From Parvibaculaceae bacterium (lineage in GTDB: Bacteria; Pseudomonadota; Alphaproteobacteria; Parvibaculales; Parvibaculaceae), in NCBI GenBank assembly GCA_029209985.1, contig JARGNZ010000003.1, forward strand, positions 1 to 32,188: a stretch of DNA of 32,188 nucleotides. The letters run 5' to 3'. Numbering within the stretch: the stretch's first letter is position 1; every line of letters begins with the position of its first letter. Positions 10,741 to 24,687 of the stretch are shown here, one piece after another. A program made the translations under genes and the position numbers. Below the pieces are notes generated by a model, which saw only the letters and a program-made list of their open reading frames with translations, ran no database searches and had not been told where the DNA came from.

Positions 10741-11379
10741 TCAGGACTCGACATGACCAAGGCCTGTCACCTGAAGAACAACCCCAGTCTCACTAGACTG
10801 GCTTTGCTCCATTTCACTATCGAATTTCCAATATTTACGCGCCTGGGTCAATTCATCTGTGGCCCCTTCACCCTTTAAATAGAGGCCAACGGTGTTTTCT
10901 TTCCAAAATGGCGCTGAAAGGCCAAGAAGTTTAGGAAGCGGCGCCAAAGCTCGGGCCGTTACAACATCAGCCTTCAGGTCTGTCAGTTGCTCAATGCGAA
11001 CGGAATGAACCGTTGGCTTAACCCCCGCAGCACGGCACGCTTCTCGGACAAAAGTGCACTTCCGTTGATCGCTATCTACCAGATGAACATCCATATCTGG
11101 ACGTTTTTCTGCCAACAAAATGGCCAATATCGCACCGGGAAATCCCCCGCCACTTCCAAGGTCTACAAGGGTTTGAGCCTCATCGGGAATTTTACCCATA
11201 AGCTGAGCGCTATCCAAAAAATGGCGCTGCCAAAGGTCCTCTAAAGTCCCTTTTGACACCAAATTGATCGCCTTTTGCCACTTAATGAGAACAGACTCGT
11301 ATAACGAGAGTCGGGCAACTGTTTCACGTGAAACATTCGCGAACCGGAAAAAGGATTCCGCATCAATGACTTGCGGCAT
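10741..11379 (-). CDS. rsmG: 16S rRNA (guanine-N7) methyltransferase RsmG
   Basis: RsmG methylates G527 (E. coli numbering) of 16S rRNA using S-adenosylmethionine; its loss gives low-level streptomycin resistance in several bacteria. The product is 212 residues with the SAM-binding LVDLGSGGGFPG at about 71-82 and the acidic VHLVDSDQRKCTFVRE segment. The ATG at 11379 has AAGGAA eight bases upstream. Codons 15-20 (NVSRET) are written by a perfect 16-bp parS site, so the gene carries a centromere in its coding sequence. It follows mnmG by 39 bp and precedes parA. Confidence 0.96.
   Translation of the reverse strand: MPQVIDAESFFRFANVSRETVARLSLYESVLIKWQKAINLVSKGTLEDLWQRHFLDSAQLMGKIPDEAQTLVDLGSGGGFPGAILAILLAEKRPDMDVHLVDSDQRKCTFVREACRAAGVKPTVHSVRIEQLTDLKADVVTARALAPLPKLLGLSAPFWKENTVGLYLKGEGATDELTQARKYWKFDSEMEQSQSSETGVVLQVTGLGHVES
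11320..11335. promoter_or_regulatory. parS: parS site 1 (perfect), inside rsmG
   Basis: TGTTTCACGTGAAACA is an exact match to the 16-bp palindromic ParB-binding consensus. It lies within the rsmG reading frame and encodes NVSRET on the minus strand. It is about 12 kb from the presumed oriC. Confidence 0.95.
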
Positions 11380-13339: not shown

Positions 13340-13355
13340 TGTTTCACGTGAAACA
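13340..13355. promoter_or_regulatory. parS: parS site 2 (perfect), between mnmE and mnmG
   Basis: A second exact TGTTTCACGTGAAACA lies directly beside the mnmE stop codon (13356-13358) and 56 bp before the mnmG start. The two sites are 2.0 kb apart and flank mnmG, forming a small origin-proximal centromere. Confidence 0.95.
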
Positions 13356-21068: not shown

Positions 21069-22136
21069 TTAAGACTTACCAGAGATCAAATCATAAGCCG
21101 AACACCCGTAATCATCTTCACAAATCGCCTTATGCGAAGCTGGATCCGTTGCAAGCGCCTCACGTACTAGCTTACCAAGCGCACCGATAAAGTTGGGTTC
21201 AGTTCCAATAGCTTCAACCCGCAAATAGATAGACACCCCGGCCTCTTTCGCAAGTTCTCCATATTCAATATCAAGCTCAACAAGAGTTTCAGAATGCTCC
21301 GTGACAAAGGCAATCGGGGCCACCACAACAGCTTTCCCATCAGCACCCGCCCGCTTAATTTCATCTTCAGTAGAAGGGACAATCCACTCCATCGGTCCCA
21401 CTCTACTCTGATAACAATCAAGCCAATCAAGCTCAGCCATACCCAACCCGTCCGCAATCGCCCGGCATGTTTGGCGCACATGGTTTTGATAAGGGTCACC
21501 CCCCTCAATCACTGATTTTGGCAAGCCATGGGCTGAAAGCAACAACCGAACATATTCCAAGCCGCCTGCATCCTGAATAGCTTTTTCAACAACAGGTTTA
21601 ATCAAATTCACCTGCCCCTGAATAAAGCCCGGCTCTGTTGGATAAGAGCAAACAATATGCGTGGGTTTATCAAGCTGATTGGCCCGCGCTGCCCGGCCCC
21701 ATTCCTTCAACGAACTTTCGGTCGTTGTTGTGGAATACTGAGGGTAAAGCGAGAGCAAAACAATTTCATCAGCTCCCCAAGCTTGAACCTCCTTGGCGGC
21801 TTGATCAGAAAATGGATGCCAGTAACGCATTGCGATAAAGCATTTTGCATCAAAATCCGCGCCTAAGTCAGTTTCTAAACTGCTGCCCTGTTCAAGCGTT
21901 AAGGGAACAATGGGAGAGCCGCCCCCCATATATTGATAAATCTCCCGTGCAATAGGGGCGCGACGAGAAGAGATTAACTTCGCCACAAGCCATCGAAATG
22001 GATTGGGCAACCGAATGATTGCGGGATCACGAAACAAATTGAACAAAAAAGGTTTCACCGCATCAGGACAATCTGGACCACCCAAATTCATCAAGACAAC
22101 AGCCACTTTCTTTTTTGGCAGATTTGTTTGTGTCAC
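21069..22136 (-). CDS. hemH: Ferrochelatase
   Basis: The enzyme inserts ferrous iron into protoporphyrin IX to make heme. The product starts MTQTNLPKKKVAVVLMNLGG and has 355 residues. MNLGGPD, the YMGGGSPI loop and the catalytic-His segment LLLSAHGLPKSV are all present, as is the late YCSRVGP-like region (here CYQSRVGP). I chose the GTG at 22136, which shares GTGA with the hemE stop and has GGAG eight bases upstream. The longer frame from GTG 22145 lies inside hemE. The stop-start overlap implies translational coupling to hemE. Confidence 0.96.
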   Translation of the reverse strand: MTQTNLPKKKVAVVLMNLGGPDCPDAVKPFLFNLFRDPAIIRLPNPFRWLVAKLISSRRAPIAREIYQYMGGGSPIVPLTLEQGSSLETDLGADFDAKCFIAMRYWHPFSDQAAKEVQAWGADEIVLLSLYPQYSTTTTESSLKEWGRAARANQLDKPTHIVCSYPTEPGFIQGQVNLIKPVVEKAIQDAGGLEYVRLLLSAHGLPKSVIEGGDPYQNHVRQTCRAIADGLGMAELDWLDCYQSRVGPMEWIVPSTEDEIKRAGADGKAVVVAPIAFVTEHSETLVELDIEYGELAKEAGVSIYLRVEAIGTEPNFIGALGKLVREALATDPASHKAICEDDYGCSAYDLISGKS

Positions 22137-23206
22137 GGCTTCCACTCCTTCACCAATTCAACAAGCTCACCCACATGCTCAGGAGGCGTATGTGGCACAA
22201 TTCCGTGTCCTAAATTAAAAACAAAAGGACCGTGCCCAAGGGTATCAAGAATATGCAAAGCACTTTCGCGCATGGTTTCCCCCCCAGCCACAAGCGCAAG
22301 CGGGTCTAAATTCCCCTGCACAGTGCCAAGTGGTTGCAATACTTTTGCCGCCCATGCGGGATCAACACCTGTATCAATGCTAATCGCATTAATACCTGTT
22401 TCCCGAATATAGGTTTCGTAAGAAGCCCCAACACCCTTTGGAAAGCCAATAACAGGTACGTTAGGACATTGATCGGCCAATCGCGCACGCAATCGACGCA
22501 TCGGTTCTAAGCACCATTTGCGGAAATAAGGGGCAGGTAAACTCCCCGCCCACGTATCAAAAATTTGCAAAGCTTCAGCACCAGCCACAACTTGGGCGAT
22601 GAGATAATCCCCAGTGACTTCAGTCAGCAAATCAATGAGCCGCTGAAATGTTTCAGGCTCGTTATACCCTAAAGCCTTTGCCGCTCCTTGGTCGGGAGAA
22701 CCACGCCCCCCCACCATGTAGGTTGCAACGGTCCACGGAGCCCCAGCAAATCCAATCAAAGCGGTTTCATCAGGCAAGGCTGCCCGTAAGCCAGAAACTG
22801 TTTTGAAAACCGGCATAAGATGGTCCAGCACCCGGTCCCCATCAAGCGCATCAATTTGTGCTGCTGTGGTAATCGGTTCTAGAACTGGGCCAATGCCCTC
22901 TTCAAACCGCACTGGTTGGCCTAATGCATCTGGGATTACCAAAATATCAGAAAACAAAATTGACGCATCAAAGCCAAACCGCCGGATAGGCTGCAATGTA
23001 ACTTCAATCGCATGTTCTGGGGTGTAACAAAGATCAAGAAAACTCCCAGCAACTGCCCGGCGTTCTTTGTATTCAGGCAAATACCGACCAGCTTGACGCA
23101 TCAACCAAATGGGAGGGCGATCTGTGGGCTCTCCTCTAAGGGCTTTGAGAAAGCGTTTTTCACTTGATTGGAGAGCAGTGGATGGTGCGGCTGTCTTCGA
23201 TGTCAT
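22133..23206 (-). CDS. hemE: Uroporphyrinogen decarboxylase
   Basis: The enzyme removes four carboxyl groups from uroporphyrinogen III to give coproporphyrinogen III. The product is 357 residues, normal length. The substrate-binding N-terminus RPPIWLMRQAGRYLPEY and the FSDILVIPDALG and GFAGAPWTVATYMV segments are family hallmarks. The ATG at 23206 is preceded only by a weak GTGAGT site. It is the first gene left of the putative origin and is transcribed away from it, as hemE is in Caulobacter and other alphaproteobacteria. Confidence 0.97.
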   Translation of the reverse strand: MTSKTAAPSTALQSSEKRFLKALRGEPTDRPPIWLMRQAGRYLPEYKERRAVAGSFLDLCYTPEHAIEVTLQPIRRFGFDASILFSDILVIPDALGQPVRFEEGIGPVLEPITTAAQIDALDGDRVLDHLMPVFKTVSGLRAALPDETALIGFAGAPWTVATYMVGGRGSPDQGAAKALGYNEPETFQRLIDLLTEVTGDYLIAQVVAGAEALQIFDTWAGSLPAPYFRKWCLEPMRRLRARLADQCPNVPVIGFPKGVGASYETYIRETGINAISIDTGVDPAWAAKVLQPLGTVQGNLDPLALVAGGETMRESALHILDTLGHGPFVFNLGHGIVPHTPPEHVGELVELVKEWKP

Positions 23207-23346
23207 TGTAACTCACTGAGTTTCTTCTAGCCTATGTGAAGGCTGTAAGATTGGGCGTTTCATAGGCGATAGGCAAAACAGTTGATTGAGTGAATGTATA
23301 TCAGGGATAGCTAAGGGCATATCCAATTTCCAAAAGATTTTAATAT

Positions 23347-23382
23347 CTATAGGTAGTGGTAGTAGTAGTACCCTGTGGATAA
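23347..23382 (-). promoter_or_regulatory. DnaA box plus DnaA-trio unwinding element
   Basis: On the minus strand a perfect TTATCCACA (23382-23374) is followed by GGGTA, then CTA CTA CTA CCA CTA CCT, then AT-rich DNA running towards hemE. Box, short GC block and repeated triplets in this order and spacing match the basal unwinding system described for the B. subtilis origin, where DnaA loads on single-stranded trios. The element would open DNA on the hemE side. Confidence 0.7.
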
Positions 23383-23406
23383 GGAGGATTATTTTTTGAA
23401 CTCTTT

Positions 23407-23415
23407 TTATTCACA
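23407..23415 (+). promoter_or_regulatory. DnaA box (TTATTCACA)
   Basis: The sequence matches TTWTNCACA within a T-rich stretch (23391-23411), close to the perfect box at 23374-23382. Confidence 0.6.
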
Positions 23416-23488
23416 CTTATGGAGCCTTTCTAAAGCAATTTCAGATTATTCAAACTGTCATTTTTGTCGCGCGGGATGGATTTGGATT

Positions 23489-23506
23489 CCTTGAGGAGTC
23501 TCAAGG
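23489..23506. repeat. Palindrome in oriC containing a GANTC site
   Basis: CCTTGAG-GAGT-CTCAAGG is a perfect 7-bp inverted repeat around four bases, with GAGTC at its centre and GATTC just left (23485-23489). It may be a protein site or a cruciform element within the origin. Confidence 0.5.
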
Positions 23507-23529
23507 CTCTTCCCTGTGCAAAGTCTTGC

Positions 23530-23538
23530 TGTGGATAA
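23530..23538 (-). promoter_or_regulatory. Perfect DnaA box
   Basis: TGTGGATAA, the reverse complement of TTATCCACA, lies in the middle of the origin gap. A weaker TGTGCAAAG lies at 23515-23523. Confidence 0.75.
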
Positions 23539-23695
23539 GTATAAAGATGGGGACAAGTAAAGCACTACTCTCAAGACATACTTTTATCCCCATGATCCCC
23601 AAGCTGGAGAGTCCGGTTTTCAAGGGACTCATGAAAGTGTGTGCGACTAAGGGATGGCCAAGTAGTACCAATTGACCCTGTTCATATCTCGCCAG

Positions 23696-23723
23696 TTTTC
23701 CACGTTTTCCACAGCTATCCACA
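23696..23723 (+). promoter_or_regulatory. Cluster of three DnaA boxes
   Basis: TTTTCCACG (23696-23704), TTTTCCACA (23705-23713) and CTATCCACA (23715-23723) are three tandem, same-direction DnaA-like boxes. They lie about 120 bp before the PPDK regulator start. The middle one fits the TTWTNCACA consensus. Confidence 0.7.
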
Positions 23724-23841
23724 GGTCCCTACCAAAGTATGACCGCTAAATTTTTGGGAATTTAGTATGCCCTACTGGGTACTGCTGGCTTTTGGGGCGA
23801 ACTGTCGATATTTTACGGTGCATCAACAGTCAGGACATTTT

Positions 23842-24687
23842 ATGGCAACCCGCCGCATTTTCCATCTTCACCTTTTATCCGATGCTACCGGCGAAACTTT
23901 GAATGCGGTGGCGCGCGCGGCGTGTGCCCAATATGAGGATGTGCGCCCGGTCGAGCATATTTATGCGTTGGTTCGGGGTCCAAAACAGTTAGACCGTGCG
24001 ATCGGAGAAATTGAAGCGGCTCCTGGCATTGTGATGTTCACAATGGTCAACGCAGATCTGCGCGATAAATTAGTCCGCAAATGTGCTGAGTTGGAAATCC
24101 CGTGTATCTCAGTGTTGGACCCTGTGATTGGTGCGCTCGGCTCTTATTTGGGCCGCAAAATTTCCAATAAGCCGGGCGGGCAACACGCAATGAATGCGGA
24201 GTATTTTGATCGCATTGAGGCGCTCAATTATACAATGGCCCATGATGATGGGCAGGAAACCGCCGACATCAATGATGCCGATATTGTGTTGGTAGGCGTG
24301 TCGCGCACATCCAAAACACCTACTTGCATTTATTTGGCAAACCGGGGGATCAAAGCTGCAAATATTCCTCTCGTACCCAATGTGCCCTTGCCCGACAGTC
24401 TGATGGTCGCGACAAACCCTCTAATTGTAGGTTTGATTGCAAACCCTGAACGTCTCGTACAAATACGTAAGAACCGGCTTCTTTCTTTGAATGAGAAACA
24501 AGAAACAGAATATGTCGACAAAAAGCTTGTGACCGATGAAGTGGCTCAGGCTCGCAGGCTTTATAATAAGCACGGCTGGGCTACCATCGATGTGACCCGC
24601 CGCTCGATTGAAGAAACATCAGCCGCTGTGCTCAATCTCTATTCCCGCCATCGCCAAGAAATGATGCCAAGCTTGGCGGATGATTGA
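23842..24687 (+). CDS. Pyruvate, phosphate dikinase regulatory protein (DUF299)
   Basis: This is a bifunctional ADP-dependent kinase and phosphorylase that switches pyruvate phosphate dikinase (or PEP synthetase) off and on. The ATG at 23842 gives 281 residues starting MATRRIFHLHLLSDATGETL, the usual opening. An upstream ATG at 23767 lies in the origin region and lacks family similarity. The P-loop-like motif GVSRTSKTPT (about 152-161) and the LDPVIGALGSYLGRK segment are hallmarks. It is the first gene right of the origin, a position it shares in many alphaproteobacteria. Whether the target is PPDK or PEP synthetase cannot be told from this window. Confidence 0.93.
   Translation: MATRRIFHLHLLSDATGETLNAVARAACAQYEDVRPVEHIYALVRGPKQLDRAIGEIEAAPGIVMFTMVNADLRDKLVRKCAELEIPCISVLDPVIGALGSYLGRKISNKPGGQHAMNAEYFDRIEALNYTMAHDDGQETADINDADIVLVGVSRTSKTPTCIYLANRGIKAANIPLVPNVPLPDSLMVATNPLIVGLIANPERLVQIRKNRLLSLNEKQETEYVDKKLVTDEVAQARRLYNKHGWATIDVTRRSIEETSAAVLNLYSRHRQEMMPSLADD

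Follow-up and report, generated by a model that had tools for sequence, protein, structure and literature searches.

The window analysed here is a 32,188-nucleotide stretch of a Parvibaculaceae draft genome, and the feature of interest is the intergenic gap between hemE and RP001 (23207–23841), which is the predicted oriC. The left flank of the gap is hemE (uroporphyrinogen decarboxylase, 22133–23206, minus strand), and the right flank is a plus-strand homologue of RP001 (PEP synthase/PPDK regulator family, 23842–24687; NF003742, 1.4e-101), at whose conserved Met the right edge of the gap was placed. A hemE homologue divergent from RP001 is found in all same-family relatives read. The gap is AT-rich (59%, versus 48% for the contig) and contains six DnaA boxes that deviate at no more than one position, whereas the average for the 175 kb contig is 0.15 such boxes per 600 bp. 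Perfect DnaA boxes number just 18 in the whole genome, and two of them fall inside this ~0.6 kb gap, one within the element described below and the other at 23530–23538 (minus strand). Four GANTC sites are also present. On the RP001 side of the gap, tandem DnaA boxes, TTTTCCACA-G-CTATCCACA, occupy 23705–23723 on the plus strand. Several relatives have similar pairs (TTTTCCACACTCATCCACA) in the corresponding position, and on this comparison the tandem may be a second conserved origin element.

The gap is neighboured by hemH, hemJ, rho, mnmE, gidA, gidB, parA and parB. Two perfect parS sites (TGTTTCACGTGAAACA), at 11320–11335 and 13340–13355, are positioned in or beside gidB-gidA and near parAB, both 10–12 kb away from the predicted origin. 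The GC skew shifts from about −0.15 to about 0 at 22.5 kb, a break that favours an origin here, but the profile is noisy and the cumulative minimum of the contig falls at 61.9 kb. The contig also carries dnaA (G000:C49:135878), ~112 kb distant from the predicted origin; in a relative with a complete genome, G011, the distance is ~1.39 Mb. A search for exact matches to the CtrA site TTAA-N7-TTAA gave none within 23207–23841, and the IHF consensus is likewise absent from this gap, though the origin is of the Cori type, with a cluster of DnaA boxes between hemE and RP001. Because of the hemE/RP001 flanks, parAB, the two perfect parS sites and the box cluster, the locus is read as an origin, and judged from its sequence it is very likely that of the chromosome. 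The hemE-linked origin assumed in the original prediction is therefore upheld.

The element under study is read on the minus strand. A perfect DnaA box, TTATCCACA (box 2, 23382–23374), is followed by the GC spacer GGGTA (23373–23369), by the six triplets CTA CTA CTA CCA CTA CCT (23368–23351), and then, from 23350 downward, by ATA GATATTAAAATCTTTTGG, or ATA GATATTAAAATC in the longer reading. This is the order of box, GGGTA, CTA/CCA/CCT triplets and AT-rich DNA that had been predicted. Alignments revealed in addition a weak box, TAATCCTCC (box 1, 23391–23383), which abuts box 2 in the same orientation and whose position reads TGATCCCCG in relatives. The DNA beyond the triplets (23300–23350, minus strand) is 69% AT and is the putative melting zone; nearest-neighbour stability within the gap is lowest for the 40-mer 23331–23370, on the triplet side. 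The span first assigned to the element, 23347–23415, omits this AT-rich DNA (~23300–23350) and includes a different AT-rich stretch, on the other side of the box. The 20-mer TTATCCACAGGGTACTACTA occurs once in the 3.09 Mb draft genome, and CTACTACTA occurs once in the 175 kb contig, at the element. A genome search with ATCCACA-N(0-8)-CTACTA retrieved the element and one unrelated site.

The strand that DnaA would bind reads 3′-GAT GAT GAT GGT GAT GGA-5′ along the tract. The published rule for DnaA-trios, 5′-NTN-3′ on the strand read here and 3′-NAN-5′ on its complement, is obeyed by four successive triplets, GTA CTA CTA CTA, the first of which begins 2 nt past the box, so that the window contains the run of at least three consecutive trios expected of a basal unwinding element (BUS). 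The CCA and CCT triplets break the rule. The first trio is 2–5 nt from box 2 and 11–14 nt from box 1, within the BUS limit of 16 bp, and the box beside the trios, for which a BUS allows up to two mismatches, is the perfect one at 23374–23382.

Conservation of the spacing between box, GC spacer and triplets had been proposed as a check, and it was run on relatives. A strict BUS search in these genomes gave scattered matches at wrong places, and for this reason an alignment approach was adopted. In all 35 same-family genomes in which the gap was read, the order hemE-oriC-RP001 is kept, and the weak box, the perfect-type box and the triplet tract recur (35/35). The family form of the element in these 35 relatives is TTTGATCCCCG-NN-ATCCACA-GG/GC-tract-AT-rich, located upstream of hemE and on the same strand as hemE. 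The element usually lies ~60–300 nt from hemE, and its orientation is constant. Mean site identity in the family is 0.88, 0.74 and 0.60 for the boxes and tract, versus 0.33 at 30–60 nt upstream. In most family members (e.g. L005, L018 and L026) and in many other families, a AAGATTCT/AAGACTCT motif with a GANTC site (CcrM-type) is found 3′ of the tract; the same downstream position in the window reads AAAATCTT, without this motif. Through the GANTC-bearing motif, the melting zone might be coupled to the state of methylation.

A profile of the family element matches other families in the same place and orientation. The class-wide profile R1, a 61-position model built from 34 diverse elements with that of the window included, matches the window at full length (23337–23392, minus strand, E=6.8e-9) as the sole match in the genome. 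Its best match falls at the origin in the held-out genomes G011, G065, G303, G309 and G190, and weakly so in G094. In genome searches, 14 of 32 genomes gave no match at E 0.1, from which it follows that R1 is blind to the most divergent versions of the element. So that elements were not picked by eye, another scan used a weight matrix covering just the two boxes and not the triplets, with the best shuffled score as cut-off and one genome per family; this found the element in most of 36 alphaproteobacterial families outside that of the window. A few of the anchors in the 36 families are visibly wrong, the effect of which is only to dilute the signal. In Caulobacteraceae (L119, L126, L127 and L165) the tract is degenerate and C-rich (L119, for instance, has CCCTCCTGCTCCCTCTTCC), and this may be the reason that the element has gone unnoticed in Cori.

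In the 36 families, the 21 nt after the boxes have a clear three-base periodicity, with a lag-3 identity of 0.478 versus 0.322 in shuffled sequences (z 9.0) and a lag-6 z of 5.5. Runs of at least three 5′-CNA-3′ triplets (3′-GNT-5′ on the bound strand) are found in 16/36 families versus 0.7 expected, a count that none of 1000 shuffles reached. In contrast, runs of at least three 5′-NTN-3′ triplets (3′-NAN-5′) are found in 7/36 families versus 7.3 expected, which is the chance level. These shuffle scores treat the families as independent, and shared ancestry means that this independence is overstated. The enrichments are larger still in a hand-chosen set of 64 elements; since the tract was seen during the choice, they were set aside. 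In the same hand-chosen set, the DNA after the triplets has a mean GC of 0.24 across the class. The phase of the tract relative to the boxes, taken modulo 3, is not fixed in the 36 families, and a rigid structural register is thus unsupported. As a small positive control, canonical trios were sought in the vicinity of dnaA in other Proteobacteria, with no clear result, the origins there being possibly elsewhere. The periodic element is thus real, and across the class its triplets are marked by C in first and A in third place, with the middle base free.

The structure of B. subtilis DnaA on its BUS shows the protein capturing two of the three bases in every trio, the G through Arg202 and Glu228 and the middle A through Asn187, which touches its amine (PMC10721633). 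At the middle position C is tolerated, while G or T is poor (PMC10721633). The BUS authors themselves remarked that the pocket residues are not universal. When DnaAs were aligned to B. subtilis chain 8btg, whose numbering is used here, the DnaA of the window genome was found to have Phe187, Val190, Leu193, Lys202 and Glu228, so that of the Asn187, Arg202 and Glu228 pocket only the Glu is present. Among 90 alphaproteobacterial DnaAs, position 187 is Tyr in 67, Phe in 8, His in 3, Asn in 6 and other residues in 6 (Tyr/Phe/His in 78/90); position 202 is Lys in 90/90, and Glu228 is retained in 89/90.

The genomes with Asn187 belong to two clades (f57 and f101), which do not group as sisters when DnaA is used for a tree, one whose deep nodes are weakly supported. 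Family f57 has Asn187 in 30/30 genomes and a tract that is mostly CTACTACTGCTACTACC, with T as the middle base in 66% of cases versus 28% in aromatic-187 genomes. The tract of f101, which also has Asn187, is CTACTACTT, also given as CTACTACTTACAACTACC. CTN runs of at least three are found in 4/6 Asn187 genomes versus 3/44 aromatic ones (p=0.002, with kinship ignored). The exceptions among the Asn187 members are G094 and G183, which lack a canonical run. On the other side, the window itself is one of the three aromatic-187 genomes with such a run; it has Phe187 yet canonical CTA triplets, and the relaxed code is not illustrated by the window itself. The way in which the middle base goes with residue 187 in these sequences matches the pocket model, in two clades only and with these exceptions.

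The origin context, the architecture of the element, its conservation, the three-base periodicity, the CNA preference and the difference at residue 187 can all be read directly from the sequences compared, and on this ground the interpretation of the locus as a "basal unwinding element" is well supported. We consider it quite probable that the element acts as the opening module of an alphaproteobacterial chromosome origin, namely a BUS with relaxed trios in which a DnaA filament forms on 3′-GNT-5′. Two DnaA molecules, one at the weak box and one at the neighbouring TTATCCACA box, would face the triplets. Starting from them, a DnaA filament would grow onto the complementary strand, with its repeated 5′-TNG-3′ (3′-GNT-5′), at three bases per protomer, and would pull the adjoining AT-rich DNA open for helicase loading. 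Such filament binding and strand opening are proposed by analogy with experiments on B. subtilis and H. pylori (PMC6669920, PMC8287927). In most alphaproteobacteria the trio code would be relaxed, keeping the first G and the third T of the bound strand and leaving the middle base free. The middle base is likely free because position 187 carries an aromatic residue instead of the Asn that hydrogen-bonds the middle A, a causal link that we infer. Taken one step further, residue 187 of the initiator-specific motif might set the middle base of the trio, with Tyr or Phe reading 3′-GNT-5′ and Asn reading 3′-GA(N)-5′, and the single-strand code would then evolve together with DnaA. This broader proposal is tentative, and we hold it to be possible rather than probable.

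The closest alternative is that the tract is an ordinary run of canonical B. subtilis-type DnaA-trios around which the relatives merely vary. The correctly placed GTA CTA CTA CTA of the window and the CTN runs of f57 and f101 would fit this. However, in the 36 other families NTN runs are at chance while CNA runs are more than 20-fold enriched, and most of the class is without Asn187, so this explanation appears unlikely. The same data divide the original claim of a B. subtilis-type unwinding element: the architecture of box, GC and triplets is conserved, whereas canonical trios are not what the relatives conserve, since outside a few lineages 3′-NAN-5′ is at chance, 5′-CNA-3′ is kept instead and DnaA residue 187 has changed. 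It is also quite unlikely that opening takes place on the opposite side, at 23383–23440, beside the TTATTCACA box at 23407–23415. The 40-mers with the highest AT content in the gap (75%) are indeed there, but the weakest 40-mer by nearest-neighbour stability lies over the triplets and beyond, and the class-wide AT-rich DNA, measured in the hand-chosen set, comes after the triplets.

Could the conserved stretch be a promoter or leader element of hemE rather than an unwinding element? It is upstream of hemE in most genomes, and in G190 (L368), where an insertion with a 199-aa ORF separates the element from RP001, it still adjoins hemE. Against this, the element is tied to two DnaA boxes of the same orientation and has AT-rich DNA after it, and in G112 (L074), which has rho in the place of hemE, the best genome match, a weak one (E=0.07), is still upstream of RP001; a role in hemE expression is accordingly given a low probability. 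Just as improbable is that the tract consists of successive weak sites for DnaA on double-stranded DNA, of the W-box or the Thermotoga-like ACCTACCACC kind, in place of single-strand sites. W-boxes are known in Caulobacter (PMC4285127), and some relatives read ATCCACTATCCACT, with a lag-7 repeat (z 3.0); the dominant period, however, is 3 nt, where double-stranded boxes next to each other would give 9–11 bp, and in many tracts (CAACAACAACTACAACC) a box core is absent. Slippage can create short CTA repeats, but a chance microsatellite is hardly credible for a tract whose homologue stands in the same place in 35/35 family relatives read and in many other families.

The reading that we favour, a BUS with relaxed trios, would place the window within an already known kind of element; what we propose as new is the class-wide relaxed triplet and its tie to residue 187. 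No alphaproteobacterial study of trios or of the initiator motif was found in the openly accessible literature, which does not prove that there is none. The choice of strand by DnaA is known structurally for B. subtilis, and an altered class-wide triplet together with a changed pocket offers a natural test of that structure. It may also explain why the model alphaproteobacterial origin is not described through trios. If residue 187 does set the middle base, alphaproteobacteria would have a trio code of their own, not described so far and overlooked by current BUS finders. BUS predictions that demand the middle A are suggested to be no better than chance in this class, where 5′-CNA-3′ should replace the rule.

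Compared with the BUS of B. subtilis (DnaA-box#6/#7, spacer and DnaA-trios), the window element likewise has two boxes side by side in one orientation, a short spacer of GC type, a repeat of three bases and AT-rich DNA, and its polarity is the same. It differs in that the weaker box is the upstream one, and the class differs in that most members have 3′-GNT-5′ rather than 3′-GAT-5′ and a DnaA mostly without Asn187 and without Arg202. Pelliciari et al. (2021, PMC8287927) predicted a BUS in 1755/2070 bacterial origins (85%), with a tree that includes Proteobacteria classes, which weakens the original suggestion that trios are unexpected in alphaproteobacteria. Their rule, as given there, calls for a box and at least three triplets within 16 bp, with the middle A required; the window would pass it, whereas in alphaproteobacteria the required middle A is at chance. 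The same authors suspected that some trios deviate by lacking the middle adenine (PMC8287927).

The hemE/RP001 pair, hemE/CC0001 in Caulobacter, flanks the experimentally known origin there (PMC1914354). Cori of Caulobacter crescentus, with its G-boxes, W-boxes, CtrA and IHF sites, shares with the window the hemE/RP001 flanks, the AT-rich DNA and GANTC, and the core of TGATCCCCG in relatives is close to the W-box consensus TCCCCA (PMC4285127). Unlike Cori, the window gap is without an exact TTAA-N7-TTAA or IHF consensus, and for Cori no triplet element is described in the openly accessible literature. CAA-type tracts read TTGTTGTTG on the bound strand, which is similar to TTGT and TTATT, the single-strand motifs in the DUE of E. 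coli; the E. coli system, however, works through a DNA loop with IHF, whereas in the window the triplets come directly after the box.
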